From positions 1 to 23,204 of IMG/VR virus record IMGVR_UViG_3300037071_000517: 23,204 nt of DNA, one strand, 5' to 3'. The notes beneath the pieces are model-generated. The model saw nothing but the letters and a program-made list of their open reading frames with translations. It was not told the origin of the DNA and did not search any database. The stretch's first letter is position 1. Every line of letters starts with the position of its first letter. This stretch comes from a virus. Both the position numbers and the translations under genes were made by a program. Shown piece after piece: positions 78-23,204 of this stretch.

Positions 78-847
78 CTAAGACACTAGCTCAGATAGAA
101 TCAGGGCTTAAAAAGGTAGGTGTCATTCCACAGAATATCTACAAGGCTGTCGACTCATCAAAGCCCGTACGGGTCATACCGGGGATTTTGCGAGAGCATC
201 AAGCTCTTATGGTGGAGGCTATTATTATCCACTACGCGGAATACCATAATTATCCAACTCCTCGTGAATTACACGAATACACGAAGAAGACTGTTCCGCT
301 AGCATTGTGTCACCGGGTTTGGCAAGTCCAACCGTTCTTGGACGTGCTGTATGCACGAGGGCTTCCCAGTATCGAGAGTCTCACAGTTAGACGAGAAGAC
401 CCACACGTAGTAACTAGCATTGCCATTAGCGAAGCTTTAGATCCTAGACAGTTATTAGCCCTTAGTGTAATGACCGATACAACCCAAAGGCTGTCGTTGG
501 AAACTAGACTGCGCAGGGCTGGCATCCAGAAGAGCGAGTGGCAGAATTGGATGCGAAATAAGAAGTTCCGGGAGAAGTTCGAGAGAATAGCCCGAGAGAC
601 TTTTATTAGGTCTCAAAGCATGATTGATTTGCAATTAGCTAGTGGTGCATTAGAAGGGAAGCTCGATTTCATAAAGTATTACAACGAAGTCTCGGGCCGG
701 CACGATCCAAATAAGCAATCCCGACAGGACGTGCGGACCGTACTTGCGGCTGTCGTTGATATCATTACCCGGAACGTGACCGACCCAGAAGTCTTAAACA
801 GGATTAGTTCCGAGATGCAAATTCAACTACAGGCTCTGGACATATGA
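74..847 (+). CDS. Probable terminase small subunit (phBC6A51-type helix-turn-helix)
   Basis: This 257-residue protein has no hydrophobic segment. Residues about 125-215 look like the DNA-binding part of phBC6A51-type small terminases: helices with LETRLRRAGI, then SEWQNWMRNKKFREKF (a recognition-helix-like W..W...KKF pattern), then a helical tail ending in KLDFIKYYNEVSGRHD, matching the usual 'lk.y.e..G' ending of that family. The small subunit recognises phage DNA and hands it to the large terminase. The large subunit lies about 2.5 kb downstream, so the order small-then-large fits. The N-terminal 120 residues are not recognised. The ATG overlaps the stop of the upstream gene. The family call comes from remembered patterns, not a search; another DNA-binding protein is possible. 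Confidence 0.6.
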   Translation: MTKTLAQIESGLKKVGVIPQNIYKAVDSSKPVRVIPGILREHQALMVEAIIIHYAEYHNYPTPRELHEYTKKTVPLALCHRVWQVQPFLDVLYARGLPSIESLTVRREDPHVVTSIAISEALDPRQLLALSVMTDTTQRLSLETRLRRAGIQKSEWQNWMRNKKFREKFERIARETFIRSQSMIDLQLASGALEGKLDFIKYYNEVSGRHDPNKQSRQDVRTVLAAVVDIITRNVTDPEVLNRISSEMQIQLQALDI

Positions 848-999
848 TGCTTAGATACATGTGGACTATTTGGGTGCAGGAAGTATTTGAGGCTAGAGAT
901 TGGGATACGCTTTGTAACGCACAAAGAATGATGCGACAGGTAGAGCGGTTGACAAATGGTCAGCCGTCGTTCTATGGTATAGGGCGTGACCCATCCTGA
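844..999 (+). CDS. Small protein of unknown function, 51 residues
   Basis: The ORF starts with ATG inside the ATGATG at 844-849, overlapping the stop of the putative small terminase, and ends at the TGA at 997-999, overlapping the next gene (GTG at 986) by 14 bases. It fills a gap of about 140 bases that would otherwise be the longest gene-free stretch here. The product begins MMLRYMWTIWVQEVFEARDW and is rich in Met, Trp and Arg, with an amphipathic look and no clear membrane segment. A start at 847 is equally possible. I do not recognise it. Coding status rests only on position and overlap. Confidence 0.5.
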   Translation: MMLRYMWTIWVQEVFEARDWDTLCNAQRMMRQVERLTNGQPSFYGIGRDPS

Positions 1000-1687
1000 G
1001 ACAGAACGATATTATACGCCTAAGCTTTCGCTTACGGCGCCTAGTATCGACGATGAAATCTCCGCTATGCGTCCGAATTGGGAACGGTTAGATCAGGCAT
1101 ATGCTGGTGCAATTATAGTCAATCCTGATACGATTCCGGATGAGTCTGTACTGTATGATGGTTGTCTAGTAGCAGAACGCTCGACAGGTATCGTATGGAG
1201 AGCGCAGAAGAACGCCAGTGGGGTATTCGAGAAGCGATATATTAAATATCCTTGGCGAATTAGTTTCTATAATCAGACTAACCAGAGCCCTACAGGTATT
1301 ACAAACTGGGCACTGTTTGGATATAGCACTGTCGAAGGCGGAACTATTAATGCAGGTGCAGAAAGCTTAGTTGGTGGTAGGGCTATAATTCCAGTGACCG
1401 GTTATTACCAGGGTGGAGACTGGGTTAAATGGAATACACCACAAACTGCAAGTCACCGGGGTCATACGCTCTGGGTTAATAATGAAACTACTGCTAGTCC
1501 CAACTCACCACAAGATGGTGAACAGTCTAGACCGTGTGTTTTCAATGGTGGTAGTACTTCCTGTGTAAAGATTAATAGGAAGTTCTATAAAGGGGATTCG
1601 GTATGTGCAGGTCTTTGGCACGCCGAGGCTGTCGGTATCACCGTTGACCATCGTATCCAACTCGCATTGGTAAGGGTGGTAGGCTGA
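986..1687 (+). CDS. Fibre/receptor-binding-like protein, paralogue 1 of 3
   Basis: This 233-residue protein, with a GTG start, is the first of three consecutive related genes. Its N-terminal ~90 residues are the shared module: YTPKLSL, then NWERLD, then VLYDGCLVAERSTGIVW, then FEKRYIKYPW. The C-terminal ~130 residues are Gly-, Asn- and Thr-rich with alternating hydrophobic residues, ending in RIQLALVRVVG, which looks like a small beta-sandwich resembling C1q/TNF-type head domains of phage fibres. A conserved attachment end with a variable receptor-binding end is the usual design for such proteins. No enzyme motif is visible. A structural role is inferred from architecture and tandem position; the precise role (fibre, collar appendage or head decoration) cannot be told. 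The GTG is only weakly supported by a ribosome-binding site. Confidence 0.75.
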   Translation: MTHPETERYYTPKLSLTAPSIDDEISAMRPNWERLDQAYAGAIIVNPDTIPDESVLYDGCLVAERSTGIVWRAQKNASGVFEKRYIKYPWRISFYNQTNQSPTGITNWALFGYSTVEGGTINAGAESLVGGRAIIPVTGYYQGGDWVKWNTPQTASHRGHTLWVNNETTASPNSPQDGEQSRPCVFNGGSTSCVKINRKFYKGDSVCAGLWHAEAVGITVDHRIQLALVRVVG

Positions 1688-1688
1688 T

Positions 1689-2363
1689 ATGGCTAGGCAG
1701 TATACACCGCGGATGAAACTTATCACGGAATCAGACGATGAGTTAATTGACCAGTTTGAATATAACTGGCCGATTTTGGATTACTATGCAGATAGTATTA
1801 TCGTAAATAACGGTGTGACACCGCCAGATAGTGAGCTTTATGATGGCTGTCTAGTAGCAGAACGAACTAGTGGTAAGCTATGGATGGCTAGTAGGAATCT
1901 AGCTACTGGACTGTTCGATAAAAGCTGGATCGTCTATCCGTGGACTATCGAAAGCTCAAAGACATTTGCCACTAACGGCAGTAATAATGTGCTACAGGGT
2001 TTCCCTACTCTGGAAGCGGCAAATTGCGTTAACGCAGGTGCGGCAGATATCGAGGCTGGAACTAGCTATATTATCATTCCAATTGCAGGTATCTATGCGA
2101 TCTGGACGACGCTTCATATTAATGGTACCGGTGCTGCGAGTAAGACCTACAATAATGTGGTAGTTATGGATACAGTCGGTCAGTCCGGTACGGAAATGAT
2201 TATGGATTCCATTTCTGGTCAGGATGCTGTTGCTGGCTGGGACGGTAATTATGCGATGGGTGCTGGAACTAAGGTAGGTTTCAGGATAGGTGATTTTAGT
2301 GGTGGAGATGTTCATACTGGTGTTATGCGTATTGGTATTACTATGATTTCACCGCTCAACTGA
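1689..2363 (+). CDS. Fibre/receptor-binding-like protein, paralogue 2 of 3
   Basis: This 224-residue protein starts one base after the previous stop. Its N-terminal module matches paralogue 1 closely: YTPRMKL, NWPILD, SELYDGCLVAERTSGKLW, FDKSWIVYPW. The DNA for the LVAER core is identical to paralogue 1 over 17 bases (1848-1864 against 1163-1179), a sign of fairly recent duplication. The C-terminal half, with AGTSYIIIPIAGIYAIWTTL and ending GVMRIGITMISPLN, has the strand pattern of a C1q-like jelly roll ('agiY.i...l.i'). It shares almost no sequence with the C-terminal half of paralogue 1, so the heads have diverged or been swapped. Function inferred: virion appendage that contacts the host surface. 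Confidence 0.75.
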   Translation: MARQYTPRMKLITESDDELIDQFEYNWPILDYYADSIIVNNGVTPPDSELYDGCLVAERTSGKLWMASRNLATGLFDKSWIVYPWTIESSKTFATNGSNNVLQGFPTLEAANCVNAGAADIEAGTSYIIIPIAGIYAIWTTLHINGTGAASKTYNNVVVMDTVGQSGTEMIMDSISGQDAVAGWDGNYAMGAGTKVGFRIGDFSGGDVHTGVMRIGITMISPLN

Positions 2364-2383
2364 TCTTCCTGTCGGGAGCTGAT

Positions 2384-3049
2384 ATGTCCACGCTAACACC
2401 AAGAGTGAAATATGAACTAGACGCGACAGGACAAATCGGTGTCCAGCACGCTAACTGGGATCGGTCTGATTATGTAGCCGGTCTGATTTATCGGCTGTCG
2501 ACTGATCCTCCTGTCGATACTGCTATCTTGTACGATGGCGCTGTCGTAGTAGAGAAGGATACCGGTATCTCTGCCAGATACCTATGGAATGGTTCTGGTT
2601 TCGATAAGAAGTATGTGAACTATCCGTTCTACTACTGGGCTCAGGAACCTGGCTCTAGTTTTGGTTCCGGGCAGGCACCTCTTAATGGATGGACTCAAAA
2701 CTTTACTAGCGAGTTAATCAACTGGGATACTACCTGGCAGGATAGTACCACTAAAGGTATTAAGATTCAGGTAAAGGGTATCTATGATTTGAGACTTCAT
2801 GTGAAGCTCGATGGTACTTTCGGTGGAAGTCGTGATTTAGGATTCCGAAAGAACGGAGCTTGGCAAAATTCATATCGACAGGTGAACGCAGTGCCAGGTG
2901 GATACGGTACTGGTTATTTTATGAGTAACTCTACCAGGCAGGTATTTGCTGTTAACGATTTGATTCAGCCATACTTCTATAATACAGGTGGTGGCACCTA
3001 TAATATACTGTGCTCTGTCGAATGCTCTTTGGTTAGGCCGGTGTGGTAA
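2384..3049 (+). CDS. Fibre/receptor-binding-like protein, paralogue 3 of 3
   Basis: This 221-residue protein follows a 20-base gap that carries a plausible ribosome-binding site (GGGAG, ending 7 bases before the ATG) and one copy of CTGTCG. It keeps the module order of its two neighbours but is the most divergent: LTPRVKYEL, ANWDRSDY, ILYDGAVVVEKDTG, FDKKYVNYPF. The C-terminal half (IKIQVKGIYDLRLHVKL, then Gly/Asn-rich, ending CSVECSLVRPVW) again has a jelly-roll-like strand pattern. Its stop overlaps the ATG of the next gene. Probable role as for the two upstream paralogues. Alternatives are a collar protein or a head decoration protein. Confidence 0.72.
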   Translation: MSTLTPRVKYELDATGQIGVQHANWDRSDYVAGLIYRLSTDPPVDTAILYDGAVVVEKDTGISARYLWNGSGFDKKYVNYPFYYWAQEPGSSFGSGQAPLNGWTQNFTSELINWDTTWQDSTTKGIKIQVKGIYDLRLHVKLDGTFGGSRDLGFRKNGAWQNSYRQVNAVPGGYGTGYFMSNSTRQVFAVNDLIQPYFYNTGGGTYNILCSVECSLVRPVW

Positions 3050-3354
3050 TGACTAGTCCAGCGGAAACTGGTAAGGTAAATACCACTGCTAGTTCTTCAC
3101 CTGATAGACGGGCTGTCGCAGAATTCCATCGTAATTCTGATCTGGATACTAGGCCAGAGGCTCAGCACCATACGACAGGGAACGGTTCTAATCAAGGCGC
3201 GTATGGTAACCATACTCACGATGGACAGCGAGGTTTGTTGCTATTAGAAGGTGTGACATTTACTGGATCGCGTTCTAATAACACGGCTGATATCTTGAAC
3301 CAGATTATGAATGCTCTGGTTCCACTAGGCGCTACAAATGCCACCGGGTCGTAA
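3049..3354 (+). CDS. Small His/Gly-rich virion-type protein
   Basis: I take the ATG at 3049, which overlaps the previous stop as TAATG, in preference to the GTG two codons upstream at 3043. The product is 101 residues. Its centre is polar and His/Gly/Asn-rich (HHTTGNGSNQGAYGNHTHDG), followed by LLLLEGVTFTGSRSNNT and a C-terminal helix ending ALVPLGATNATGS. Small proteins with a 'GNHTHDG...L.GVT.TGS' core occur, from memory, next to tail-fibre or minor tail genes in actinobacterial phages, and this one also sits beside fibre-like genes. A short structural or linker protein of the appendage complex is likely. The histidines might bind metal in a trimer. No enzymatic motif is seen. Confidence 0.7.
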   Translation: MTSPAETGKVNTTASSSPDRRAVAEFHRNSDLDTRPEAQHHTTGNGSNQGAYGNHTHDGQRGLLLLEGVTFTGSRSNNTADILNQIMNALVPLGATNATGS

Positions 3355-4930
3355 TCCCCGTAGGGCAAAGCCGGAAGATTATATGTCCACCAAAGATATG
3401 GTGGATTTTTTGACGAACAGCTTGAAACTACAGGCTAAGACGCCTAATCTGCACGCATACATTCCGCATTCAAAACAGAGTGCGTTTCATAAGAGTGATG
3501 CCAAGGGACGACTTTACATTGGGGGAAACAGATCAGGAAAGTCTGTTGGCGGTGTGGTCGAAGATTTGTGGTGGGCTACAGGACGCCATCCTTATATTAA
3601 GACTCCAGAATTGCCCATCCACGGACGAATTATCGGCGTTGACTTCATTAACGGGATTCAAGGTATCCTACTGCCAATCTTCAAGCGATGGATTGTGCCT
3701 AGTGACCTTATCAATGGTAGCTGGGAAGATTCCTGGCACAATCTCGAAAGAACGCTCACATTAGCCAACGGCTCGATACTGGACTTCAAATCTAACGATC
3801 AGGATTTGGAGAAGCATGCAGGTACCTCTCGAAACTTTATTCATTTCGATGAGGAACCGCCAAGAGCTTATTTCATCGAGAATCTTCTTCGTCTAGTTGA
3901 CACAGGTGGGTCCTGGTGGATTACCATGACTCCTGTCATGGGAATGACGTGGATTTACGCTCAGCTGTATGAGAAGTGGAAAAAGGGACACGTCGATAAC
4001 TTCGAGGTCATCGAAGTAGATATGGCGGATAATCCATACCTGTCGGAGACCGAAAAGGCTGCGATTCTGGGTTTCCTAAATGCAGATGAGCGATCGAAAC
4101 GAGAGCACGGTAATTTCATCCCGCGCGGTGGCTTGGTATATCCAGACTTCGAGGAAACCAAGCACGCTACTATTAGGAACTGGAAACCACCGAAAGACTG
4201 GATGGTTTATCAGAGTACCGATCACGGATACAATAACCCTGCTGCTCATTTGTGGCACGCTGTATCTCCTGACGGACTGACCGTCGTTACGTTCCATGAG
4301 ATGTATGGTAGTGAGAGAATCGTCAAGGAATGGGCTGCTGATATTCTGAAGTGGGAAGCGGAGAACGGAATCGAGATATTTTTGCGAACTGGCGATCCTG
4401 CCATGAAACAGAGACAGGCAGTAACTGGAACCAGTATCGCTAGCGAATACGCAGACTGTGGTATCTATTTCAGTCTAGATTCCGTACCTCGTGACGTGGC
4501 TGTCGGCGTAAACAGGATTACGCAGTACTTGCAGGTGAATCCGCATACCAAGCAGCCATTCTGGCAAATTGATGGAGAACGTTGTAAGAATCTTACGCGA
4601 GAAATGCTACAGCTACAGTGGGCATATTATGAGTCTGCAAAACTAGCGGATTCAAACAATAAGCAAGAAAAGATCAAGAAGAAAGACGACCATGCTCCGG
4701 ACTCGGCCCGTTATTTCTTCACGTTCTTACCCGACCTGGGATCGATGGTTGATACAACGATCGATCCAATTATGGAAGCTCTTGGAAACGGAGGCATTCA
4801 GGCCGGAACAATATGGGAATTTATCGCCCGAGCGAAAGGACCGGAAAGTAATTTCGGACCGACGAGTACTGAATGGATGACCCAGGAAGGGTTTTCCGTA
4901 ATGCCTGATGATTGGGATGACGATTTCTAA
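3338..4930 (+). CDS. terL: Terminase large subunit (packaging ATPase and nuclease)
   Basis: TerL pumps DNA into the procapsid through the portal and cuts concatemers. Counting from the ATG at 3338 (530 residues), the ATPase shows Walker A GGNRSGKS (62-69), Walker B FIHFDEE (167-173) and a TMTP coupling-type motif near 196. The C-terminal RNase H-like nuclease shows the expected three acidic positions: D295 in STDHGYN, D353 in TGDPAMK and D455 in DHAPDSARYF. Length and motif order are normal for a complete large terminase. The 3338 start overlaps the upstream gene by 17 bases. A second ATG at 3383 (MSTKDMV), preceded by GGAAG, is an equally good start. The stop overlaps the next ATG. Confidence 0.95.
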   Translation: MPPGRNPRRAKPEDYMSTKDMVDFLTNSLKLQAKTPNLHAYIPHSKQSAFHKSDAKGRLYIGGNRSGKSVGGVVEDLWWATGRHPYIKTPELPIHGRIIGVDFINGIQGILLPIFKRWIVPSDLINGSWEDSWHNLERTLTLANGSILDFKSNDQDLEKHAGTSRNFIHFDEEPPRAYFIENLLRLVDTGGSWWITMTPVMGMTWIYAQLYEKWKKGHVDNFEVIEVDMADNPYLSETEKAAILGFLNADERSKREHGNFIPRGGLVYPDFEETKHATIRNWKPPKDWMVYQSTDHGYNNPAAHLWHAVSPDGLTVVTFHEMYGSERIVKEWAADILKWEAENGIEIFLRTGDPAMKQRQAVTGTSIASEYADCGIYFSLDSVPRDVAVGVNRITQYLQVNPHTKQPFWQIDGERCKNLTREMLQLQWAYYESAKLADSNNKQEKIKKKDDHAPDSARYFFTFLPDLGSMVDTTIDPIMEALGNGGIQAGTIWEFIARAKGPESNFGPTSTEWMTQEGFSVMPDDWDDDF

Positions 4931-5355
4931 TGTCTGATACGTTTACGTTTGTCAAAGCGGGAGAGGCAGCGCATCCCGGTACGTGCCTGATTTGCGGATT
5001 CGATAGGCGAGATTTCATCGACTTTCGTCGAGATATGGAATACTATGGTGCTGTACTCGTATGCGTTTCATGCATTCAGGAATTGGGCACCGTTCCTCAG
5101 TTGGATTTCGTATCGAGAATCGATTATGAGGAACAGGCTGCTCTAGCCAGGTCGCTAACTCAAACCGTACAGTCATATGAGGGACTCAGGAAGAAGTTGG
5201 AAGATGGACTGGTACGTGTTGCCAACGATTTTACTGTCGATTTTGATTCCACTGGGATTAATCGAACTCCTACGCTACAAGGCGAACAAGGATACGTTAA
5301 GCTCGTTGAACCAGCAAAACAGCGAATTCCAGAAGACATTAATTCACCTTTCTAA
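4930..5355 (+). CDS. Four-cysteine zinc-ribbon-like protein with helical tail
   Basis: This 141-residue protein is coupled to terL by TAATG. The N-terminal part has two CxxC pairs, C19-LI-C22 in GTCLICGF and C45-VS-C48 in LVCVSCIQ, spaced as in a small zinc ribbon. Residues about 65-105 are charged and helical (YEEQAALARSLTQTVQSYEG), a probable coiled coil. The C-terminal 40 residues are polar. I do not recognise the family. Its place between the large terminase and the portal suggests a packaging or head-assembly accessory, or a DNA/RNA-binding regulator, but that is inference from position. Zinc binding is inferred from cysteine spacing only. Confidence 0.75.
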   Translation: MSDTFTFVKAGEAAHPGTCLICGFDRRDFIDFRRDMEYYGAVLVCVSCIQELGTVPQLDFVSRIDYEEQAALARSLTQTVQSYEGLRKKLEDGLVRVANDFTVDFDSTGINRTPTLQGEQGYVKLVEPAKQRIPEDINSPF

Positions 5356-5377
5356 TCTCCTGTCGTCTAAAGACCCT

Positions 5378-5578
5378 ATGGCATTTCAGGCAGTGTCTGT
5401 TGTAAGTCCGCAGATGCCAGCGTATGATTCGGAGTACGACCCAAGTGATGAGGCTGAAATTGCAAGGCTAAGGGAACGAGGAATCAGTGACGGGGCCATA
5501 CTCGATGAATGGAGCGGGGACGAAGGTAGGGAATTCGCTACCATCCGATCCGAACTCTATGGCGATCAGTCAACCTGA
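5378..5578 (+). CDS. Small acidic protein, 66 residues
   Basis: The ATG at 5378 is the first after the previous stop, leaving a 22-base gap that contains a CTGTCG copy. The product is acidic, with EYDPSDEAEIARLRERGISD followed by GAILDEWSGDEGREF. It looks like a real soluble protein, with a helix-turn-helix-sized helical segment (EAEIARLRERGISDGAIL), rather than a chance frame. The frame stays open far upstream inside the zinc-ribbon gene, but that extension looks like shadow sequence. It overlaps the portal gene by 20 bases if the portal starts at 5559, or by 92 if it starts at the GTG at 5487. Function unknown. No good ribosome-binding site is visible. Confidence 0.6.
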   Translation: MAFQAVSVVSPQMPAYDSEYDPSDEAEIARLRERGISDGAILDEWSGDEGREFATIRSELYGDQST

Positions 5579-7733
5579 TCCTAATATTCTGCCTTCTGGT
5601 AAAAAGAAGCGTCCTCTCGACAAAATGTCGGAAAAAGCTCAGAAGGAAATCGTCTCATGGGTTCAGGGCGAATATGGGAAGATGAAGAATTACCGCCAGA
5701 GGATTCGGCGGCAGTGGGATATGAACTTGGAGATGTATGGGGGAAACCAGTTCATTACAAATCTTTCCAAGGATGGCAGGACTACTGGCCGCATTGGTAC
5801 ACCGCCTTCTGCCCGACACCGCGAGCGAAGTGTTACCAACCGTATTCGGCCGATGATCCGGACGGAAATTACCAAGCTTACCTCGCAAAAGCCAAGCGTC
5901 ACTGTTATTCCTGCTTCGGGTGAAGATGATGACCTGTTTGCGGCGCAATCTGCCGAGGCAGTATGGGAATTTCTGTTCGATCATCTGAAATTCCAGTGGA
6001 CTTCGGAACGTGCAGCGTTTTGGACCAGTATTACCGGTAATGGTTTCGTAAAAACATGGTGGGATACCCAGAAGAAAGACACCATGTTCAAGAACATCCT
6101 GGGTATGCCAACAGTGGGTAATATCCAAATCAAACCAGTCACACCGTACAATATCTTCCTGCCTGATCTTCTGTGTGAGGACCTCGAAGATCAGACTCAT
6201 ATCTTCGAGGCTTATACTCGTCCTGTCGAATGGGCAAGACAGTACTGGAAGATGGATTTCACACCAAATGCCATAGCCAAGACTGAAATCTTCGAGGCTA
6301 GTTACTTCCAAAGTACTGGTGATAATACTTCCTCTCCGGATTCTGTGCTCATTATGGAGGCATGGATTAAGCCGGGAACTTGTAAGCTATTCCAAGATGG
6401 TGCGCTGGTCACTATTTGTGGGGATAAGCTCGTCAACTTTGATGAAGGTATGTGGTACTCACATGAGGAGTACCCGTATGCTCAGACAAAGCACGTTCAG
6501 ACCGGTAAGGCTTATGGTGCAAGTATCCTAGAGGATATTAATCATCTCCAAAAGGAATATAATCGTACCAGATCACAGATTATCGAATCGAAGAACCGAA
6601 TGGCGCGGCCGCAATTGCTGGCCCCACAGGGTTCATTTGATGTATCGAAATACACTTCCGAGCCCGGTCTGGTTGTTTTGTATCGCCCCGGGCTTGGAAA
6701 ACCGGAACAAATGCAAATCCAGCCGATTCCGAACTATGTGCTCCAAGAAGTTGAGCGCATTATTTCGGATATGGAGGATATTAGCGGCCAGCATCAGGTA
6801 TCCCGAGGAATGGCACCGGGACAAGGTGTAGTGGCTGCGACAGCGATCGCATTTCTCCAGGAGAAAGACGATGCTATCCTGTCGAATACGATTTCTAGTG
6901 AAGAACAGATGGTCGCAAAGATTGCGCGTCATGCTCTTACACTGGTCGTAGATTACTGGGATATTCCTAGACTTGTGCGTGTGACTGGAACCGATCGTGC
7001 ATTTGATTCGTTCCAGCTAAAGGGATCTGATATTGCGAACTCGCTAGATGTTCGCGTCGAGCCAGGGTCTGCACTACCGCAATCTAAAGCGGCTCGACAA
7101 GCATTTCTTATGGACCTCGCCAATATGGGCGCTATCAGTCCCCAGCAAATGCTGGATATGATGGAAATTGGTGGGGTCCAGACGCTCGTTGACCGCATGC
7201 GTATTGATATGCGTGCGGCTCAGCGGGAAAATTTGAAGATGAAGCAACTTACCGAAGAATCTATCCTGCAATTCAACCAAGAAATGATGCAAAAGGCTCT
7301 ACAAGGTGCCGAAGGTACAGTAGACCCACAGCGCGGAATTCCGACTGTTGACGCAGCGAATCTTTCGACGTATCCTCCTTGTATCAAGGTCAACAAGTGG
7401 GACAATCACGCAGTACATGTTACGACACATAACAACTTCCGCAAAACCCAGGCATTTGAATTGCTCTCTCCAATGGTTCAGGATCAGTTCGACAGGCATA
7501 TTATGATCCATGAATCATACCAAATGATGAGTCAAATGAACCCGATGTTTGGGGCAGCACAGCAGGGTATGCCACAGGAAGCAATGGGTATGGTTCCCGA
7601 AATGCAGACCGGACCACAGGACCCCAGTATGGGTATGGGCGGCCCGCCACAAGGTGACCAGTCTCCCGAAATGGGTGGAGAAATGCAGCCAAGTATGGGA
7701 GGCGGAGAAATGCCGCCAGGACCGATGGGATAG
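5559..7733 (+). CDS. Portal protein (P22-type)
   Basis: The portal is the dodecameric ring at one head vertex through which DNA enters and leaves. From the ATG at 5559 the protein has 724 residues, close to the 725 of P22 gp1. Portal-like features are the basic N-terminal helices (KNYRQRIRRQWDMNLEMYGG), a central KAYGASILEDINHLQKEYN segment, a 'SGQHQVSRG' stretch and the long helical region VDRMRIDMRAAQRENLKMKQ. The last ~67 residues are a disordered Met/Gly/Pro/Gln-rich tail with repeated GMG and MGG units. A GTG at 5487, preceded by GAGG, would add 24 residues. I prefer the ATG because the extension covers much of the small acidic ORF. The gene sits between terminase and scaffold, as expected for a portal. 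Confidence 0.88.
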   Translation: MAISQPDPNILPSGKKKRPLDKMSEKAQKEIVSWVQGEYGKMKNYRQRIRRQWDMNLEMYGGNQFITNLSKDGRTTGRIGTPPSARHRERSVTNRIRPMIRTEITKLTSQKPSVTVIPASGEDDDLFAAQSAEAVWEFLFDHLKFQWTSERAAFWTSITGNGFVKTWWDTQKKDTMFKNILGMPTVGNIQIKPVTPYNIFLPDLLCEDLEDQTHIFEAYTRPVEWARQYWKMDFTPNAIAKTEIFEASYFQSTGDNTSSPDSVLIMEAWIKPGTCKLFQDGALVTICGDKLVNFDEGMWYSHEEYPYAQTKHVQTGKAYGASILEDINHLQKEYNRTRSQIIESKNRMARPQLLAPQGSFDVSKYTSEPGLVVLYRPGLGKPEQMQIQPIPNYVLQEVERIISDMEDISGQHQVSRGMAPGQGVVAATAIAFLQEKDDAILSNTISSEEQMVAKIARHALTLVVDYWDIPRLVRVTGTDRAFDSFQLKGSDIANSLDVRVEPGSALPQSKAARQAFLMDLANMGAISPQQMLDMMEIGGVQTLVDRMRIDMRAAQRENLKMKQLTEESILQFNQEMMQKALQGAEGTVDPQRGIPTVDAANLSTYPPCIKVNKWDNHAVHVTTHNNFRKTQAFELLSPMVQDQFDRHIMIHESYQMMSQMNPMFGAAQQGMPQEAMGMVPEMQTGPQDPSMGMGGPPQGDQSPEMGGEMQPSMGGGEMPPGPMG

Positions 7734-7740: not shown

Positions 7741-7743
7741 ATT

Positions 7744-10164: not shown

Positions 10165-10200
10165 GGGGTCGGTTCTGCCATGCACGACAGAATCGGCCCC
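10165..10200 (+). terminator. Hairpin after the capsid gene (possible terminator or processing site)
   Basis: GGGGTCGGTTCTG (10165-10177) pairs with CAGAATCGGCCCC (10188-10200) along all 13 positions with two G-U pairs, around a 10-base loop. It is the clearest inverted repeat I saw between genes, and it sits in the longest gap in the window. No run of T follows (AGGGGCATAT does), so it is not a textbook intrinsic terminator. It may instead partly terminate, pause or stabilise the 3' end of capsid mRNA. A CGACAG hexamer spans the loop and the base of the right arm. Confidence 0.5.
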
Positions 10201-10216
10201 AGGGGCATATCACCGT

Positions 10217-10226: not shown

Positions 10227-11852
10227 ATGTCTGCGCCACTTTCCTTGCGAGATAAGCAAATGGCTGCTCTCGTTGCGACGTATGGACCTGGCTTGTCCTA
10301 TGCTGATATGTTGCAAAAGTATCTAGGTAACGGTAATAGCAGTATCAGTGATCTGTTTAATACTGCCTATCCAGGTCCCGGTAGTTCTACTGATGGCTAT
10401 TATAATGTCCTTTCTGGTTCTGGTTCTATGTCAGATAAGCAGTATGCTAACACTAGCGGTGGCATCGCTGTCGGTTCTCCAATTGACGCACTTATGGCAA
10501 CAACACCATTCTATATTGGGCATCGTGGCCAGGGTGATGTAGTACCTGAGCATACTTACGAAGGCTATATGGCCGCTGTTAGTGCAGGTATGAAAGCTAT
10601 TGAAGTATCGACTCAAGTATCTAGTGATAACTGGTGGTTTTGCTTGCATGATGCAGGTGCGACAGGGCTAGACCGAACTACTGATGGTACAGGTGATCCT
10701 AAAACTAAGACTCAGGCTCAGTTGCTAGCTCTTAAGGTAGATATTAATAACTGTGGACCTTACTGGGTAGCTCAGAATCTGAGGATACCTGCACTGTCTA
10801 CTGTACTTTCAGCTTTAGTGAATACTAATAACAAAGTAGTATTCCTAGAGAGTAAAGACTACACGACTACTGCTATTGACGCTCTGCTGGTTTATCTTAA
10901 TGCTAATTTCTCAGCCAAGCAGAAGTCTAATATCATTTGGAAGTCGCATGTTACTGGTGCATACGGGCTAGCTGCTGCGCGTGCAGCCGGTATGAAGTGC
11001 TGGGCTTATATTGATTATCCTCTAGTGGCTCAGCAGGTTACTGACGCACAAGCTCGGGCTGATTATATTGGTATTCCACGATATGATGGTGGTACGGGAC
11101 TTACTGATGGAGAAGTAGATACTGTAATCGCTGGTATCGGCGCAGTAAAAGCTATCTCTTGGCAACCGGTACGTCGATCTGAAATGGCTAAGCTGCTAGC
11201 TAAGGGTGTGGATGGTTTTGTGTGTCCACAAGGTAGGTATGCTTTGGATAACCTGCCTAATAGAAGCCAGGATGACTTCGCATCCGGAAAATGGGCACCA
11301 GGAGATATCCCCTTTGACTCGTCTAGAAACTTTGTTCTGGATAGTGGCACTGCTTGGTTTAATACTACTGCTACGAACCCATCGGTGGTAATGGGTTCGC
11401 TGTCGCCTTCTGGTCCGTATTTTGAAATCGAGTATGAGTTCAAATATGACACAGTGCCCGCTGCAACCCTTGGTTCAGGGATTGCTTTCTCAAAGCCTGA
11501 CGACCAAAGATACCAATTTCAGCTTGCTGGTAACCCCTCTGGCGGATATCATACTTTATTGCGACAGAATGGACAACTGCAACTGTACTCACATATTGCA
11601 GGAAGTGCATCGGGTACACAACTTGGGTCTACGATCGCTACCGCTGTCCTAAATAATACAGACTGGGCTAAGATTAGAGTCCGAGTAGATTCTAATGGTA
11701 TTCAGCTACAGCGTATGGATGGAACTCCTAGCACTGTTATTACCAGTACCGATAGTGTAAATAGGGGTAGCTATTTCCACCTGTCGCGTAATCATGCTGC
11801 TGCTACGAATGAGACGGTGAGATTTAGGAATATTAAGGTCACGGCGCTGTGA
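10227..11852 (+). CDS. Glycerophosphodiester phosphodiesterase with lectin-like domain (probable tail depolymerase)
   Basis: This 541-residue protein has three parts. Residues 1-90 are a polar N-terminal region, perhaps for virion attachment. Residues about 95-340 are a GDPD TIM barrel: H99-R100 in YIGHRGQG, E108 in VPEHT, E126 in IEVSTQ, H141-D142 in CLHDAG, LDRTTDGTGD, and E208/K210 in FLESKD. GDPD enzymes hydrolyse glycerophosphodiester bonds; in phage virions they are thought to cut glycerol-phosphate polymers such as teichoic acid. The usual ExD metal pair reads E126-V-S128, so one ligand is replaced. Residues about 365-541 look like a concanavalin/LamG-type beta-sandwich (FEIEYEFKYD, RYQFQLAG, WAKIRVRVDSNGIQL, VRFRNIKVTAL), probably for binding glycans. 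There is no signal peptide. Base composition is slightly lower in GC than in the capsid gene. Confidence 0.87.
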   Translation: MSAPLSLRDKQMAALVATYGPGLSYADMLQKYLGNGNSSISDLFNTAYPGPGSSTDGYYNVLSGSGSMSDKQYANTSGGIAVGSPIDALMATTPFYIGHRGQGDVVPEHTYEGYMAAVSAGMKAIEVSTQVSSDNWWFCLHDAGATGLDRTTDGTGDPKTKTQAQLLALKVDINNCGPYWVAQNLRIPALSTVLSALVNTNNKVVFLESKDYTTTAIDALLVYLNANFSAKQKSNIIWKSHVTGAYGLAAARAAGMKCWAYIDYPLVAQQVTDAQARADYIGIPRYDGGTGLTDGEVDTVIAGIGAVKAISWQPVRRSEMAKLLAKGVDGFVCPQGRYALDNLPNRSQDDFASGKWAPGDIPFDSSRNFVLDSGTAWFNTTATNPSVVMGSLSPSGPYFEIEYEFKYDTVPAATLGSGIAFSKPDDQRYQFQLAGNPSGGYHTLLRQNGQLQLYSHIAGSASGTQLGSTIATAVLNNTDWAKIRVRVDSNGIQLQRMDGTPSTVITSTDSVNRGSYFHLSRNHAAATNETVRFRNIKVTAL

Positions 11853-15659: not shown

Positions 15660-15660
15660 T

Positions 15661-15798
15661 ATGCCCATCGATAAGAACGGGAAGGAACCCGGCCAAAAGG
15701 GATACACACTAGAAGGTATGGAAGGTAAGAAAAAGGCGCAGGCCCAAGCCATTCTGATTTCAATGGCGAAAAAAGAAGGGAAGATTAGAAATGCCTAG
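15661..15798 (+). CDS. Small Lys-rich protein, 45 residues
   Basis: The ATG lies one base after the previous stop, and the ORF ends at TAG 15796-15798, overlapping the next gene by 8 bases. The product begins MPIDKNGKEPGQKGYTLEGM and ends in a basic helix (EGKKKAQAQAILISMAKKEG). The strong basic charge and helical end suggest a nucleic-acid-binding or virion packing role. It fills an otherwise empty 130-base gap between two coupled genes, which supports coding. I do not recognise the family. Confidence 0.6.
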   Translation: MPIDKNGKEPGQKGYTLEGMEGKKKAQAQAILISMAKKEGKIRNA

Positions 15799-16699: not shown

Positions 16700-18300
16700 T
16701 GGCTATCGATCTCAAGGCACCGCAGGTTCAGGCACTACAAAAAGCTGGGTATAAGCCACAGGAGATTCGTGCATTTCAGCTTGGTCAGCTTACTGGTACT
16801 GCTAAGAGCGATATGCTTAAGACGATCAGTCAGCCTGGAATTTCTGGACGACACCAACTCGGTGGAAACTCTAACTCGTTTCCGGTAAATCCAATGGGTG
16901 GTACTAGTGCCCCGCCAAACCGTACACCAACTTATTCGTCTAGTTCTGGTACCACTGGAACTGTTGGTAAAGGTACCTCTACTCCTGGCGGTGGTACTGG
17001 TAGGCATCAACTCGGTGGGACATTTGGACCTTCCTGGGGTCAGCAATTTGTAGATATCGTTAAAGGTGCGGTAGGTGGTATCAAACCGACCTCTGTTGGT
17101 AGTTCCTCTAGGCGAGCACCTGGAAAACCAGGTGGTGGTACTGGAAGTGTATTCGAGGGTCTGGAATTCCCAGACTATGATTACGTGCCTCCTACTTTGC
17201 AGATGAATGATTTCACTGATGAGGCAAATGCCAATGTAGATAAGGCTTTCGCGCCTCTGTTTGCGGCATATGCTCAGCAGAAGCAGGAAATCAATACTAA
17301 AGCTGGACAAGATCGACAGGTCGTAGGCGGTTTGTACGATCAGTATGTAAAGAGTATTGCCGAAGGTGCTGCACAAACTGATAAGCGATACGATACTGCT
17401 GGTGCGGAACGTGCACAGCAAGGACAAGCTCTCGGTAATACAGTCGGAAATTATTACCAGTCTGCAAACAGTAACACAGCTGATTTGCTCAAATCTATTG
17501 GTGCGCAACAGGCTGCTCCAGAGTTGCTTCAACAGGGTGCTAACGAACAGGCAGTACAGCAGAGCCAAGTTGGACAAGGTACCCAGGCTATGCAAGACTA
17601 TTACGGTCAGCAGAACCAGGGAGCGCAGGACCAGGCTGTCGGATATCAAGACGCCGCACGTAATGAAAGCGTACGGGGTCAAGCAAATGTTCTAGCAGAT
17701 GCTGCTGCTCAAATCGGTGGGGTAAATCGACAGGAAGCTGGATCACGTACCGAGGCGGGAAAGACTGCTCTCGATATCGCACAGCAGCTAGCAAATCGTG
17801 ATTTCCAGGTACAGCAGTCTAACGTAGGTAATGCTGCAAATGCCTACAACGCTGATTATCAGGGCAGGGTTGGTGATTACAATGCTGCCCGCCAGAATAT
17901 CCTGGATCAACAGGATCTGAACTACAAGACTACTCAGCTAAATCAGGGCCAGCAGCAAATTAACCTAGAAGTTGAGAAAGCAAAAGGTGGCACAGGTTCT
18001 GGGGTAAATCCGACAGGATTGAATGCTACTGCTTTGCAGTGGAGTGACCAAATCGGTCAGCAGGCTGTCGCTGATATCACCAGAACAATCAACGAAGTAA
18101 CGGCTGGTTCTCTTGTACGTACTGGTGATCCAAATAAAATGGGTAATGCCTATATCGCTATGCTGTCGAAAGCTAATGAGGTAGCTCAGCGAAGTGGTGT
18201 ACCGGTAGCCTCGGTACAAAACGCCATGATTCAAATGTGGAAGGATTCTTTCGGAGCGGCTGATACTATTCCGGAGCCAAAGGTTCCCGGTCAGCGATAA
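16699..18300 (+). CDS. Gln/Ala-rich probable internal virion protein
   Basis: This 533-residue protein starts with a short helical region (VQALQKAGYKPQEIRAFQLG). It then has a Gly/Ser/Thr linker containing two copies of GRHQLGG (residues 50-56 and 101-107), TPTYSSS at 76-82 and PSWGQQFVDIVKGAV at 111-125. From about residue 165 to 430 it is a long helical region very rich in Gln, Ala and Asn (QKQEINTKAGQDRQVVGGLY; QQGANEQAVQQSQVGQGTQA), with no proline for long stretches and likely coiled coil. Long Gln/Ala helical proteins next to hub genes are typical of ejection proteins in short-tailed phages. No catalytic motif is visible. It shares motifs with the preceding 302-residue protein. Role inferred. 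Confidence 0.75.
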   Translation: MAIDLKAPQVQALQKAGYKPQEIRAFQLGQLTGTAKSDMLKTISQPGISGRHQLGGNSNSFPVNPMGGTSAPPNRTPTYSSSSGTTGTVGKGTSTPGGGTGRHQLGGTFGPSWGQQFVDIVKGAVGGIKPTSVGSSSRRAPGKPGGGTGSVFEGLEFPDYDYVPPTLQMNDFTDEANANVDKAFAPLFAAYAQQKQEINTKAGQDRQVVGGLYDQYVKSIAEGAAQTDKRYDTAGAERAQQGQALGNTVGNYYQSANSNTADLLKSIGAQQAAPELLQQGANEQAVQQSQVGQGTQAMQDYYGQQNQGAQDQAVGYQDAARNESVRGQANVLADAAAQIGGVNRQEAGSRTEAGKTALDIAQQLANRDFQVQQSNVGNAANAYNADYQGRVGDYNAARQNILDQQDLNYKTTQLNQGQQQINLEVEKAKGGTGSGVNPTGLNATALQWSDQIGQQAVADITRTINEVTAGSLVRTGDPNKMGNAYIAMLSKANEVAQRSGVPVASVQNAMIQMWKDSFGAADTIPEPKVPGQR

Positions 18301-18314
18301 GGTAGGTAGGGGAT

Positions 18315-21300
18315 ATGGGGCATCAGTATTCTGTACGGACTGGTCGATCGCTTACCAGTCCGAAACCGATCGTCAAAGATACAGATGTCCCTAAGACCCA
18401 AATTGAGGATTGGAAGCCTACTTTCGATGCTGCGCCACCAGAAAATGGTGAAGACGAAGTAGGCTGGCTTGGCGAACTTATCGATAATATCGGTAGGTTT
18501 GGTAACTCAATTCGTGGTGGACTTGATCCTATCTTCAACGAGTCGAATCCTGACTCGATTCTTGAAGGTATGCGTAAGGGTTGGTTCAATGAGGAACACT
18601 ATACTGGTGCTACTTCTATCCAAAAAGCTGTAGACGAAGCTCATAACAAAGGTGGCTACGATAAGCTATCTGATACCCAGAAGATGGCTGTCGACTTCGT
18701 AGGATCGAACTTCTTTAAGGCGACAGCCGGTCTGGTATACGACGTCGCAACTGATCCGCTGTCGTATCCAGTAGTGACAAAAGCTGTTACTGTTCCCCTA
18801 GGAGCAGTAGTTAAGCCGGCTGCTAAAGCGACTCATCATGCTCTTTGGGGTACTAAAGCAGAAGCTAAACATGCCAAGAGACTTACCGAAGAACAGGCAG
18901 CAGCTAAGGGCCTAGAAACAGAACGAGTACGTGTTGGTGAGGAAGTTGGACCGAAAGAACAGCCAACATATACTCCTGCTGGTTCTGTTATGGGGAATGA
19001 TATTGGTGGAGCGGTATTTCCAGAGCCGCAATTAGGACCGGGTAGAACTCCTACACCGGGACCTCCTCGTTCTGAATCTGGCGCCATTATTACAGAACCT
19101 CCTGGTGGCGTTAGAGGCGGTCCACATGCGCCGTCATTTGATCCAACGACACGCAGCGCGGGCGCACAGTATATCGATGAATCTGGCCGGCCGGTATTTG
19201 CTCCGGAGTATAACGGTCCCGGTGATTTCCGTCCAACTAGTGATGTTTCTGGTTTGACTGAGGCTAGAAATCTGTCAAATGCACAGGCTGCTAGAATGGG
19301 CCGTCCGGTTCCCCCTCCTGGACCTACGGATTTCTTTCCGTCTACTAAGACAGGTACTGCTGCTCCATTCCCGGATATGCTTAACCCTAAGATTAAGGGT
19401 GCGGCTAGGGCTAAGCTACAGAATCCGATCGAACCGAAACCGCTATCTCCTGCTACCGAGGCAAATGTAGCTAGAGCAGCTGCTCACGATGTAGAACAAG
19501 CAGCAAAAGTTGCTGACGATATTACTGAACAGCCGGAACTTCCGTGGGTTCGGGGAGACATTTATGATAAGCAAGTAGATGCTGCGAGAGCTAAAGCTAA
19601 AGCTAATCCTACTGAGGAAAATCTGGATGCTTTAGATGATGCTATGGGAGCTAGGGAGGATGCTAGATTAGCTGAAGCTAAAGCTAGAGCCATACCTAAG
19701 CCTGTTACCGAAGCTGATATCGCAGCTAACCGCACTGTCGCAGAAGTTGGTGGTGATGTACGGGCTACAGATAGTGGCAAGACTAACGTAGGTATTCCGG
19801 ACGGTCCATATCCGACCGAGGCATGGAATACCGTAGTCAATAATAATGCTATGGCTACCCGTACCGCTGGATACGTGAGAGCAGCAAAGGCTACTGTTAA
19901 AGCTGCTCCGGATGCAACTCATTTTGAAGTCAATAGTGCTATGCGTGAGGCAATTGCGACAGGAGATAGACCAGCCTATAACGCAATCTTTGAAGAAGCT
20001 ACCAAAACTCACCTTAAAAAGACTCTAGCTAGTGATAAGCACGCCATGCTACAGTCCGGTACTGCACCGGTAATTCCGTACAAGGCTGCCGGAGAAAAGA
20101 TTCCTAAGAAGTACTTCCTCCACATGGCAGATATCATGCATGTTCTGCCGGACACTGTGTATAGAAGTTTCTTCAAAATCAAGGGTCAAACCCCGCCATC
20201 TAGTTGGATGGGTGCGGCTGCGGCTGCGATTCACCACTCAAATCTTGGTAAGACTGGACCGGAACTTACCGAACTGGTGAAGAAAGCGTTCCTAGATTAC
20301 AATAAGACTAAGCAGATACGTTCTGGAACGATGGCAGAACAGGCTGCGAAAGCTATTACGAAGCCAGAGAATCTCGCAAAACTCAAGGCTCGACTTCTAG
20401 AGAACGAAACTTTCATCGCTAAAGCTGACCATAAGGTCGGCGCGGCTGTCGGTGAATCAACTGCTGCGAAAGTTATCGCGGTATTAGATGATCCTGGGTC
20501 AAGTATGGCCGACGAATTGAACGCAGTAGCCGATATTCATGGTAGTATTTCGAGAGAGCTAAATGCGGCAGGTGGGCTGCCCGGGGAGGCGTCCGCTGCC
20601 ACCCAAACCGCCGGTAAGGCACTTGAACGCTACGTGGACGACCTCGACGTCGCGGCAGCCAGGACCACCCTCCGAGGGGTCAAAGCGTCTCAGCGTGGCG
20701 ATGAGGTGGCAGTACGGCGAATCCTCCTTGAGCAGTATAAGCGGGATGCAAAAGCATCGAAAGAAATCTCAGCAAGAGATGCAGGTGAATATGCATCAAA
20801 TGCAGCTCGAAACATCGAACCCAAATCTACATTTGCTCCTCCGTCAAACATCATTGCCGATTTAGCTGACCAGGAGACAGAGAATTTCCTGAACTTTTTC
20901 CAGCGCGTATACCGTGGCACTGCTATTAAGCTATTTGGCGGTGCTGGCCAGGGAAAGTTCGCTGGTATCCGCCGACAGAGCGCGCAGACTTTTGGCAAGA
21001 TGCATACGGCATACAACCGGGAGCTTTCGGTACTCGAAAAGGATTACGGTCGAGAAGCTGTCGACAATATGTTCTCGCAGATTCGTAATCGTAAATCGCG
21101 TAATAGTATGTCGCAAGGCGACAAGATGATTTACGACGACATGTACTCGAAGATGAAGAACGTCTTCGATCCTGCGGGTGGATTCCTAGAGAACGCTGTG
21201 CTGCGTTCTGGGCAAACCATCAAGGGTTTCAACGCTCAGATGAAACGTCGGGGACTTCCGCAGTATGAAATAGTAGAAGCATATCCTGGTGAGCCGCTAG

Positions 21301-22973
21301 CCCAGGCATATCAGCGAGTGGTAAAAGACTGGGTGATTCCCGATCCACTTGACTTCCTATCAAAAATGAATCAGGTATCGATGGATTCGGCCACGCTGTC
21401 GGCTATGGCTAGAGCGGCCGAGGCTAAAGGTAGCCTGCATTACCAGAAGGGCTATTCTCGAATCGCCAGGTCCAAGGAATTCGACGACGCTCCGGTATCG
21501 CACTATATCGATAACGAGATGTGGATTCCTGATACCATCATTGAAGAATTGCGTATGGCAAATGCTGAGATGCTGCGGACAGTAAACTGGGGTAAGAGTA
21601 CTACTCCGGCTGCCAAGTTTATGAACGAAGTATTTGATCCGATGACCCGAGCCTGGAAAACTTTTGCTACAAGTCTTAGGCCAGGTCACCATGCGGCAAA
21701 TGCTTCTGGTGACGCCATTGCGAATTTCGTACATGGAGTAAACGGTACAGACTATCTGCGAGCTAATCGTGCGCTTAGATCAGTGGGTATGGTCGAGCCC
21801 ATGCCGTATGCGATCATGGAAGAAATTGCTCTAGGTCGACCGATTAGAGATACTTGGCGAGCAACTAAAGGCTCGACAGGAAAGCATCGACAGCGGGTAG
21901 CAGACCGGGCTAGCGAGCATAATCTCACCATGACTCTTAAGGGTGGGAAACAAATCTCGTATACTAACGGTCAGTTTGGTGATAATCTATTCCGCAACGG
22001 TGCTCTGTCGGAGTTTAGGCAGCTGGAAGATATCGAGGTAGCTGCTAAATTCGGTGAGGTTAGACGGTTCAACAAGTCAGATGATGGCTTGATTGATCGT
22101 GGGCTGAACAAAGTACTGAATACCAAGTACGGTCGGGTGATGGAAAAGTCTGGTGAGTGGAATGCAAACATGCAACGCTCCGCCCAGATCGCTAAGCATT
22201 TGCGGGACCCAAAGTTCACTAAGAGGTTTGAGACCGAGGAAGATGCCTGGTTCGCGGCTGTCGAAAGTTCGTTCAAAACTCATCCAGATGCTGGTGGACT
22301 AACTGCATTTGAAAAGAAGTGGGGACGGCGAGTAATGCCGTTCTATTCTTACACCAGGCAGATTCTACCGTGGGTCATGATTAATTTCATGAAGCACCCT
22401 GGGCGTATGCTGGCGATTCCGAAAGCTCAGTATAATATGCAGGTACTGATGGGCCAGGACCCGCAGCAAATCGGTGCGCCATTTACCGAGATGGATACGC
22501 TACCGCCGTGGGCTAAGTCAATCATGGCTGGAAACATTCTAGGCGAAGATAAAGACCCGACTACACAGAACGTCGGATTCTCCCTGTCGTCGCCTTTGGA
22601 TACGCTGGCCGAGTTTACGAATAACCCCGAAGAAGGTCTACTAGGATCAGCGTCTAAGGCTGCGACGGGTATGTTGAATCCTCTGCTTACTGGGATTCCA
22701 CGTATGCTGGACCCAGTAAATGATACTTCGGAAGAACTAGACCAATCACTGCCGGGTCTGTCGACTGTTTCTAGTATCACCGGCCGTTCTCCGACAGGCA
22801 CTCTTGGAAATATTATAAGTGTACGTCCGGAACTTGATCCGACTAGGCAGTATGAACAGGGTCGAAAGACTCAGTTCTTGAATGAGTCGCTGGTCAACTT
22901 CTTCCTGGGTTTGCGTGTCTCGGACTACTCAGAATATTCTGCACCGGCACCAAGAATGGGGAATAGGTTGTGA
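18315..22973 (+). CDS. Giant internal/ejection-type virion protein, 1552 residues
   Basis: This is the largest gene in the window. Residues 1-150 are polar and helical (KAVDEAHNKGGYDKLSDTQK). Residues 153-178 are Ala/Val-rich (VTKAVTVPLGAVVKPAAKAT). About 220-380 is a Pro/Gly-rich, disordered linker. About 380-800 is Ala/Glu/Lys-rich helix. From about 850 the protein looks ordered and more conserved (ENFLNFFQRVYRGTAIKLFG; WKTFATSLRPGHHAANASGD), and about 1335-1377 has the aromatic/basic stretch RRVMPFYSYTRQILPWVMIN. That end resembles, from memory, the C-terminal region of large polyvalent virion proteins that enter the host with DNA. I see no lysozyme, transglycosylase or polymerase motif. 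A tape measure is unlikely because tail-tube genes are absent. The gene contains a GC-rich patch near codons 750-795. Confidence 0.78.
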   Translation: MGHQYSVRTGRSLTSPKPIVKDTDVPKTQIEDWKPTFDAAPPENGEDEVGWLGELIDNIGRFGNSIRGGLDPIFNESNPDSILEGMRKGWFNEEHYTGATSIQKAVDEAHNKGGYDKLSDTQKMAVDFVGSNFFKATAGLVYDVATDPLSYPVVTKAVTVPLGAVVKPAAKATHHALWGTKAEAKHAKRLTEEQAAAKGLETERVRVGEEVGPKEQPTYTPAGSVMGNDIGGAVFPEPQLGPGRTPTPGPPRSESGAIITEPPGGVRGGPHAPSFDPTTRSAGAQYIDESGRPVFAPEYNGPGDFRPTSDVSGLTEARNLSNAQAARMGRPVPPPGPTDFFPSTKTGTAAPFPDMLNPKIKGAARAKLQNPIEPKPLSPATEANVARAAAHDVEQAAKVADDITEQPELPWVRGDIYDKQVDAARAKAKANPTEENLDALDDAMGAREDARLAEAKARAIPKPVTEADIAANRTVAEVGGDVRATDSGKTNVGIPDGPYPTEAWNTVVNNNAMATRTAGYVRAAKATVKAAPDATHFEVNSAMREAIATGDRPAYNAIFEEATKTHLKKTLASDKHAMLQSGTAPVIPYKAAGEKIPKKYFLHMADIMHVLPDTVYRSFFKIKGQTPPSSWMGAAAAAIHHSNLGKTGPELTELVKKAFLDYNKTKQIRSGTMAEQAAKAITKPENLAKLKARLLENETFIAKADHKVGAAVGESTAAKVIAVLDDPGSSMADELNAVADIHGSISRELNAAGGLPGEASAATQTAGKALERYVDDLDVAAARTTLRGVKASQRGDEVAVRRILLEQYKRDAKASKEISARDAGEYASNAARNIEPKSTFAPPSNIIADLADQETENFLNFFQRVYRGTAIKLFGGAGQGKFAGIRRQSAQTFGKMHTAYNRELSVLEKDYGREAVDNMFSQIRNRKSRNSMSQGDKMIYDDMYSKMKNVFDPAGGFLENAVLRSGQTIKGFNAQMKRRGLPQYEIVEAYPGEPLAQAYQRVVKDWVIPDPLDFLSKMNQVSMDSATLSAMARAAEAKGSLHYQKGYSRIARSKEFDDAPVSHYIDNEMWIPDTIIEELRMANAEMLRTVNWGKSTTPAAKFMNEVFDPMTRAWKTFATSLRPGHHAANASGDAIANFVHGVNGTDYLRANRALRSVGMVEPMPYAIMEEIALGRPIRDTWRATKGSTGKHRQRVADRASEHNLTMTLKGGKQISYTNGQFGDNLFRNGALSEFRQLEDIEVAAKFGEVRRFNKSDDGLIDRGLNKVLNTKYGRVMEKSGEWNANMQRSAQIAKHLRDPKFTKRFETEEDAWFAAVESSFKTHPDAGGLTAFEKKWGRRVMPFYSYTRQILPWVMINFMKHPGRMLAIPKAQYNMQVLMGQDPQQIGAPFTEMDTLPPWAKSIMAGNILGEDKDPTTQNVGFSLSSPLDTLAEFTNNPEEGLLGSASKAATGMLNPLLTGIPRMLDPVNDTSEELDQSLPGLSTVSSITGRSPTGTLGNIISVRPELDPTRQYEQGRKTQFLNESLVNFFLGLRVSDYSEYSAPAPRMGNRL
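20566..20700 (+). other. GC-rich patch inside the 1552-codon gene
   Basis: Bases 20581-20700 are 69% G+C (83 of 120 counted). The 60 bases at 20461-20520 are 48% and those at 20761-20820 are 42%. Codons shift to GCC, ACC, CTC, GTC and GAC (for example GACGACCTCGACGTCGCG). The reading frame is kept. It may be a segment acquired from a GC-rich genome. Confidence 0.75.
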
Positions 22974-23204
22974 CTACCCCACTGATTTTGGATACTGACG
23001 ACAGTGATATGCTATGGAAGAAACTCGATGCCAAAAAGGCAGAGAACGAATCCAAGCAACGTGCCGCAGATACTATCGTCCCGGATGCGGATAGCCTGGT
23101 TTACGACAGCTATTACGATCGTCTAAAGAGTATTCAAGACAGAAGCACCAGTGCGACTCAGGGTGCAATTGCCGCAGATGCTACGAAGAAACAATACGAA
23201 GCTG
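22970..23204 (+). CDS. Start of an unknown protein, cut by the window end
   Basis: A GTG start overlaps the stop of the giant gene (TTGTGACT), and the frame stays open to the last base, giving 78 residues. The visible part is charged, with DDSDMLWKKLDAKKAENESK and then DSYYDRLKSIQDRSTSATQG, and looks helical. No motif is recognised. Coupling to the internal-protein gene suggests another virion component, but the call depends on sequence outside the window. Confidence 0.6.
   Translation, partial: MTTPLILDTDDSDMLWKKLDAKKAENESKQRAADTIVPDADSLVYDSYYDRLKSIQDRSTSATQGAIAADATKKQYEA

Follow-up and report, generated by a model that had tools for sequence, protein, structure and literature searches.

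CTGTCG in a tailed-phage genome fragment as the probable recognition word of a RepB'-like primase

The virus record IMGVR_UViG_3300037071_000517, the whole 23.2-kb stretch of which (23,204 nucleotides, nt) was analysed here as the window, represents the structural arm of an actinophage-type tailed phage. It encodes a terminase, a portal protein, a capsid protein (phrog_14242), a large late protein and a tail protein that includes a glycerophosphodiester phosphodiesterase domain. Our subject is the hexamer CTGTCG, which an earlier note on this DNA had described as strongly over-represented on both strands, and which is probably the word read by the phage's own primase. On the basis of the capsid, the named relatives are the Arthrobacter phages of the Jasmine/Adat/Brad group, Microbacterium phage Shocker, Cellulosimicrobium phage DS1, and ctEqG8, a podovirus from a spring.

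Results

The earlier note had reported 45 copies of CTGTCG on the plus strand and about 30 of CGACAG, and a recount gave exactly 45 and 30, for 75 sites on the two strands (Table 1). G follows CTGTC in 45 of 52 cases (the note had put the total at roughly 50), and C precedes GACAG in 30 of 42. Order-2 Markov expectations are 4.5 for CTGTCG and 7.9 for CGACAG, about 12 together, and order-3 expectations are 11.6 and 11.7. CTGTCG is the first-ranked hexamer under Markov models of order 0 to 3, under a maximal-order model and when the two strands are combined, and no other hexamer comes close. The copies in genes fall in two coding phases, 26 in one and 17 in the other, just as had been stated, and the note's argument that no codon explains the word was borne out: in 300 shuffles of the 21 open reading frames (ORFs) of the window, with protein and codon usage kept, CTGTCG reached 7.0 +/- 2.3 copies (maximum 15) against 43 observed, and CGACAG a mean of 8.9 (maximum 18) against 26. 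We thus reject a codon effect as the cause of the excess, and neither of the two outcomes that the note had named as refuting was obtained. Outside the ORFs used lie two copies of CTGTCG and four of CGACAG. Sites are found on either strand and between genes, and those within genes occupy two to three coding phases.

When the window was pooled with six relatives, CTGTCG was 4.2-fold enriched at order 2, while every one-mismatch neighbour was at most 1.5-fold enriched, from which it follows that the whole hexamer is specific and that all six positions matter. The one-base neighbours show no general depletion in the same pool, a result that speaks against mutation or repair turning one word into another, and word conversion by repair was rejected on testing. 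The even spread described earlier stands only in part: there is mild evenness in the window (coefficient of variation 0.82 vs 0.98 simulated, P about 0.04), and spacing is otherwise near random. A packaging ruler working by regular spacing was rejected, the evenness being only mild.

Table 1. Copies of CTGTCG in the window and those standing outside ORFs or in a hairpin (positions in the lists are first bases)
Feature	Position	Strand	Basis
CTGTCG sites, part 1	147, 491, 750, 1329, 1629, 2369, 2495, 2511, 2541, 3015, 3113, 4040, 4500, 5234, 5360, 6223, 6879, 7822, 8621, 9061, 9711, 10468, 11400	+	exact match
CTGTCG sites, part 2	11781, 12710, 13136, 13471, 13665, 14424, 15936, 16271, 16653, 17636, 18065, 18163, 18688, 18759, 19735, 20446, 21058, 21396, 22005, 22258, 22584, 22758	+	exact match
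CTGTCG sites (CGACAG on +), part 1	722, 934, 1182, 2424, 2876, 3173, 6838, 7490, 10185, 10660, 11562, 12407, 12692, 12996, 14245	-	exact match
CTGTCG sites (CGACAG on +), part 2	14302, 15276, 16363, 16517, 17314, 17728, 18011, 18721, 19957, 20973, 21874, 21888, 22792, 22999, 23104	-	exact match
Whole site set, 75 copies	147..23109	both	counts and enrichment
Site outside ORFs, 15 bases ahead of the ATG at 2384	2369..2374	+	ORF map
Site directly past the ORF end at 5355, ahead of the ATG at 5378	5360..5365	+	ORF map
Site outside ORFs	934..939	-	ORF map
Site within the hairpin past the capsid gene	10185..10190	-	ORF map, hairpin check
Site beyond the last long ORF	22999..23004	-	ORF map
Last site, outside ORFs	23104..23109	-	ORF map

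The two plus-strand copies said to precede start codons do lie outside ORFs, and the CGACAG said to sit in the capsid hairpin is found there. This stable hairpin (10165-10203), which follows the capsid gene, is probably a terminator; the primase sites of RSF1010 are hairpins too. The tail protein gene beyond it (10227-11852) encodes the glycerophosphodiester phosphodiesterase domain (PF03009).

The same word is found in related phages, ranking first or second in all nine of the closest IMG/VR relatives (75-93% capsid identity). In DS1, CTGTCG occurs 116 times against 28 expected. Distant relatives keep the core of the word and alter its 3' part: Jasmine has CTGTGG (101 vs 16 expected), ctEqG8 has CTGTAG (98 vs 28), and Shocker has CTGTAAAGG, with TGTAAA at 47 vs 0.8, along with residual CTGTCG. 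Codon shuffles agree (z 9 to 36). In Shocker (L014) and its clade mates L111 and L153, CTGTAAAGG and CTGTCG are both enriched, as though the primase of this clade recognised both sites or were changing from one to the other. A member of the class N-TGT-N-G is among the top three words in 28 of 39 further capsid relatives and in 28 of 51 contigs found through the primase-helicase, the highest frequency among 256 equivalent word classes in these sets. Many of the family contigs are mutually related, as are the T7-like contigs considered below, so that the counts are not independent.

In complete genomes neither strand and neither arm is without the word, the hexamers reaching about 2 to 3 copies per kb, and its orientation is independent of the direction of transcription; a linkage between the two was tested and rejected. 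Relatives at 56-60% nt identity have only 7-14% of sites in common and retain the word. The closest pair has a weak excess of conserved sites (24 of 61 vs 25%, P 0.015), and such an excess was seen in one of six distant relatives. It is the density of sites rather than their position that is maintained.

What the word-bearing phages have in common is a fused primase-helicase, joining a primase of the archaeo-eukaryotic type (AEP) like RSF1010 RepB' to a helicase like RSF1010 RepA. Searches with the AEP-helicase, replication genes or the exonuclease reached nine phages with an AEP-helicase whose capsids and hosts are unrelated to those of the window family. GTGTGG is the first-ranked word in six of these, with observed/expected counts of 71/23 in Muddy, 74/16.5 in PMBT14, 74/22 in JacoRen57, 90/23 in Lebethron, 65/22.5 in FF47 and 58/14.6 in Tlacuache. 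It stands at rank 2 in HanSolo and rank 5 in Button, and is weaker in Kauala (rank 34, codon-shuffle z 7.5). The hosts are Mycobacterium (Muddy, FF47, JacoRen57), Pseudomonas (PMBT14, Lebethron), Gordonia (Button), Microbacterium (Kauala, HanSolo) and Serratia (Tlacuache). Tlacuache and HanSolo were found by the exonuclease search and both carry the AEP-helicase; Tlacuache failed as an exonuclease-only control, having GTGTGG as well.

Relatives of Muddy by capsid with no detected AEP-helicase have no clear enrichment of GTGTGG: 29/29.1 in ReT1v-1 (75% capsid identity), 21/20.4 in Bbif-1 (57%) and 31/22 in Eileen (40%). A Streptomyces griseosporeus contig (L239-L241), with capsid and terminase 45% identical to those of the window family, retains the PDDEXK exonuclease, AAA and SNF2 genes and the helicase half. 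No AEP half was detected there, and none of its N-TGT-N-G words ranks higher than 31; this family member may depend on host replication enzymes. On the tree of AEP-helicases, 6 changes are enough to account for the word labels, whereas none of 200 shuffles needed fewer than 17. The presence of the word follows the primase, not the host or the capsid. The earlier note's suggestion of a host genome signature is accordingly rejected, since the same word is found on unrelated hosts and different words on related hosts. The word is not enriched in eight pieces of actinobacterial chromosomes, none from the window's own host, nor in Eileen, an Arthrobacter phage unrelated to this family with a related host.

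The replicative protein of the family is annotated as a RecA-like recombinase or a primase/helicase. Pfam assigns it an AAA_25/DnaB-like helicase, with weak prim-pol or RepB-primase matches in the N-terminal half. An AlphaFold model of residues 1-311 (pLDDT, the predicted local distance difference test, 89.6) has helices at 204-310 after the catalytic domain. The best matches of this half are RepB' (3h20, E 4e-10), the S-2L PrimPol (6zp9, E 4e-8) and the DNA-bound RepB' catalytic domain (3h25, E 2e-6), while the modelled C-terminal half matches the RSF1010 RepA helicase (1nlf, 1olo). The predicted protein has both the AEP fold and the helix bundle that define a RepB'-like primase. Residues D94, S119, H125, D154, R165, P167 and T169 are invariant or nearly so in 43 sequences, and we take these to be the AEP motifs (the acidic x-D, the S-to-H motif and the third Asp). 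We first considered a mechanism in which an ACAG primer is made by a T7-like zinc-domain primase, and abandoned it when Pfam and the fold indicated an AEP. The columns that distinguish the C, A and G word classes are confounded by phylogeny, and we draw no claim from them. In six contigs (G018, G019, G021, G023, G024 and G025), the AEP part and the helix-bundle/helicase part are matched apart from each other, in several cases in different frames, as split genes, a frameshift or an insertion would give, and the word is still enriched in several of them.

As a separate pattern, several words are strongly avoided in the window and in relatives L001-L009, L013 and L015. CTGCAG, TTCGAA, TGATCA, GGATCC and CTCGAG have zero copies in the window, CTGAAG is avoided in Jasmine (2 vs 44 expected) and DS1 (5 vs 46), and CAGCTC and CTCCTC are avoided in many relatives. 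This is probably restriction avoidance.

Discussion

The earlier note was right that the over-representation is real, that it is no codon effect and that a protein probably reads the word; the best-supported reader was absent from its list of candidates. We conclude, with a probability of about 0.83, that CTGTCG is the recognition word of the phage's own RepB'-like primase, a reading that draws on sequence comparison, a structural model and analogy with characterised enzymes. Its observed basis is the enrichment, the independence from codons, the variation of the word by clade, the absence of the word where no AEP is detected and the turnover of sites, to which a predicted fold is added. From these we infer that the AEP binds the word, where it starts, and why sites are selected.

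The primase would be the AEP half of the fused primase-helicase, as in the sister contig G002. Its helix-bundle domain would read GTCG in the single-stranded template, and the primer would start opposite the CT just 5' of GTCG, beginning A-G. On each strand, selection would hold the density at about one site per 620 nt. By chance alone, a six-base site is expected only about once in 4 kb of a strand, which is not often enough for frequent lagging-strand starts, and the genome would therefore gain copies at any place where its sequence permits. Where the primase of a lineage reads another base, the matching word would be kept: CTGTGG, CTGTAG, CTGTAAAGG or GTGTGG.

Characterised AEPs provide the analogy. 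The pRN1 primase reads GTG and pairs its first dinucleotide with the two template bases on the 5' side of this motif, the template studied being 5'-CTGTGCTCA-3' (PMC8076596, PMC11009956). NrSPol is most efficient on GTGG and GTGA and initiates on the base directly 5' of them (PMC8718748). Both pRN1 ORF904 and the NrS-1 PrimPol read their short template word through a helix-bundle domain (PMC8076596, PMC11009956, PMC8718748), and the ssiA site of RepB' carries a GTG proposed as its start site (PMC4434180). The phage words parse in the same way, as GT/GTGG, CT/GTGG, CT/GTCG and CT/GTAG. CT/GTGG and GT/GTGG contain GTG or GTGG and belong to this specificity class, whereas CT/GTCG and CT/GTAG are one base off it, so that the word of the window fits by analogy; the third base of GTG would have changed by lineage. 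One of the closest known systems is RSF1010, with 3h20 the best PDB match for the primase half, 1nlf/1olo close for the helicase half, and an initiator that includes GTG (PMC4434180). There, however, the proteins are separate, with one ssi site per strand, whereas here they are fused and the word is genome-wide. The pRN1 ORF904 and NrS-1 sites (GTG, GTGG/GTGA, TTTGGTTA) resemble the present words in having the start bases directly 5', and Jasmine's CTGTGG contains GTGG. They differ in that here the third GTG base varies by lineage (C, A, G), the word has at least six bases, and the enrichment is genome-wide, while the sites of NrS-1 itself are unenriched.

T7 gp4, with the sites GGGTC, TGGTC and GTGTC, offers a further comparison, since here too the word of a phage primase is over-represented in genomes encoding the primase, although the fold (a zinc domain and an RNA polymerase domain) is unrelated, the word shorter and the enrichment weaker. 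TGGTC, the documented T7 site, ranks 34 or better among 512 pentamers in 25 of 26 T7-like contigs (L195-L221), and in T7 it occurs 119 times vs 74 in codon shuffles (z 6.3). In some of these genomes GGGTC or GGGTCT is over-represented as well, GGGTCT being the top hexamer in three contigs, or close to the top. The enrichment of TGGTC in phages with an unrelated primase supports the general principle.

Several observations weigh against the primase as reader. The window lacks the replication arm, and with it the primase gene; this arm is present in G002 (93% capsid identity) and in contig G005. The AEP-helicase is linked with Pol A and other replication genes, and since Pol A was likewise not detected in the S. 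griseosporeus contig, the two are inseparable there. Little enrichment of the word is seen in some of the AEP-bearing contigs (L107, L137, L145, L152). Certain T7-like phages that have no RepB'-like AEP show a moderate excess of CTGTAG; the order-2 baseline is generous to this word, and because some of these phages rank it high we did not count weak CTGTAG cases, relying on the strong ones and on codon shuffles. Known AEP sites are not enriched in NrS-1 (GTGG, 156 vs 147.5) or 1706 (CCAAC, 82 vs 76.6). For their primases, GTG or a less stringent site is reportedly sufficient, and the lack of enrichment would fit a view in which enrichment is required only of sites that are long and rare.

Among other possible readers, a Chi-like signal, to which a RecB/Cas4-type phage exonuclease or a host recombination nuclease would respond in recombination or defence evasion, is the least improbable, and it is improbable enough. 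Words of the Chi type are short, oriented and over-represented, as the present word is on both strands, and a PDDEXK exonuclease and an AAA recombinase are present in most word-bearing phages. Chi is, however, read by a recombination nuclease, and in the S. griseosporeus family member (one contig only) the nuclease stays while the word is gone and the AEP undetected. The note's suggestion of such a signal is disfavoured for this reason, and GTGTGG in phages of Mycobacterium, Pseudomonas and Serratia is not what a host-specific signal would give. Scarcely more credible, and if anything a little less so, is binding of the word along the genome by a phage protein that organises, packages or partitions the DNA. 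The spread of the word and its occurrence in both orientations would suit such a protein, but the virion genes of Muddy, PMBT14 and the window family are wholly different and yet the core TGTNG is common to them, the word is missing in capsid relatives without the AEP-helicase, and the replication module is the sole known common candidate binder. A mutational or repair bias, such as has been suggested for words of the HIP1 type, or a signature of host composition, is very improbable: turnover of sites at a kept density is also expected of a mutational process, but there is no general depletion of one-base neighbours, neither the eight chromosome pieces nor unrelated phages of related hosts are enriched, and related phages on related hosts differ in the word.

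The enzyme class and GTG-type recognition were already known. Within the open-licence papers searched, there was no report of genome-wide word enrichment or of lineage variants at the recognised base. How a primase chooses among many candidate start sites, and whether the genome becomes adapted to the primase, is an open question, and site selection by the T7 primase was still called elusive in a 2026 paper (PMC12839067). If CTGTCG is indeed the word of the phage's primase, simply counting words appears to have uncovered what an uncharacterised family of primases recognises, with variants at the very base that is G in the pRN1 motif. These would supply ready-made pairs of enzyme and site for probing helix-bundle specificity, and a route to inferring primase sites across phages. 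With somewhat less assurance than for the word itself, we think it likely that the phage genome carries a genome-wide imprint of its own primase's specificity, and that in phages with an AEP primase the third base of the word has switched repeatedly (GTG, GTC, GTA, or GTAAAGG), the whole genome being re-written each time, so that the specificity may be predicted from sequence alone.

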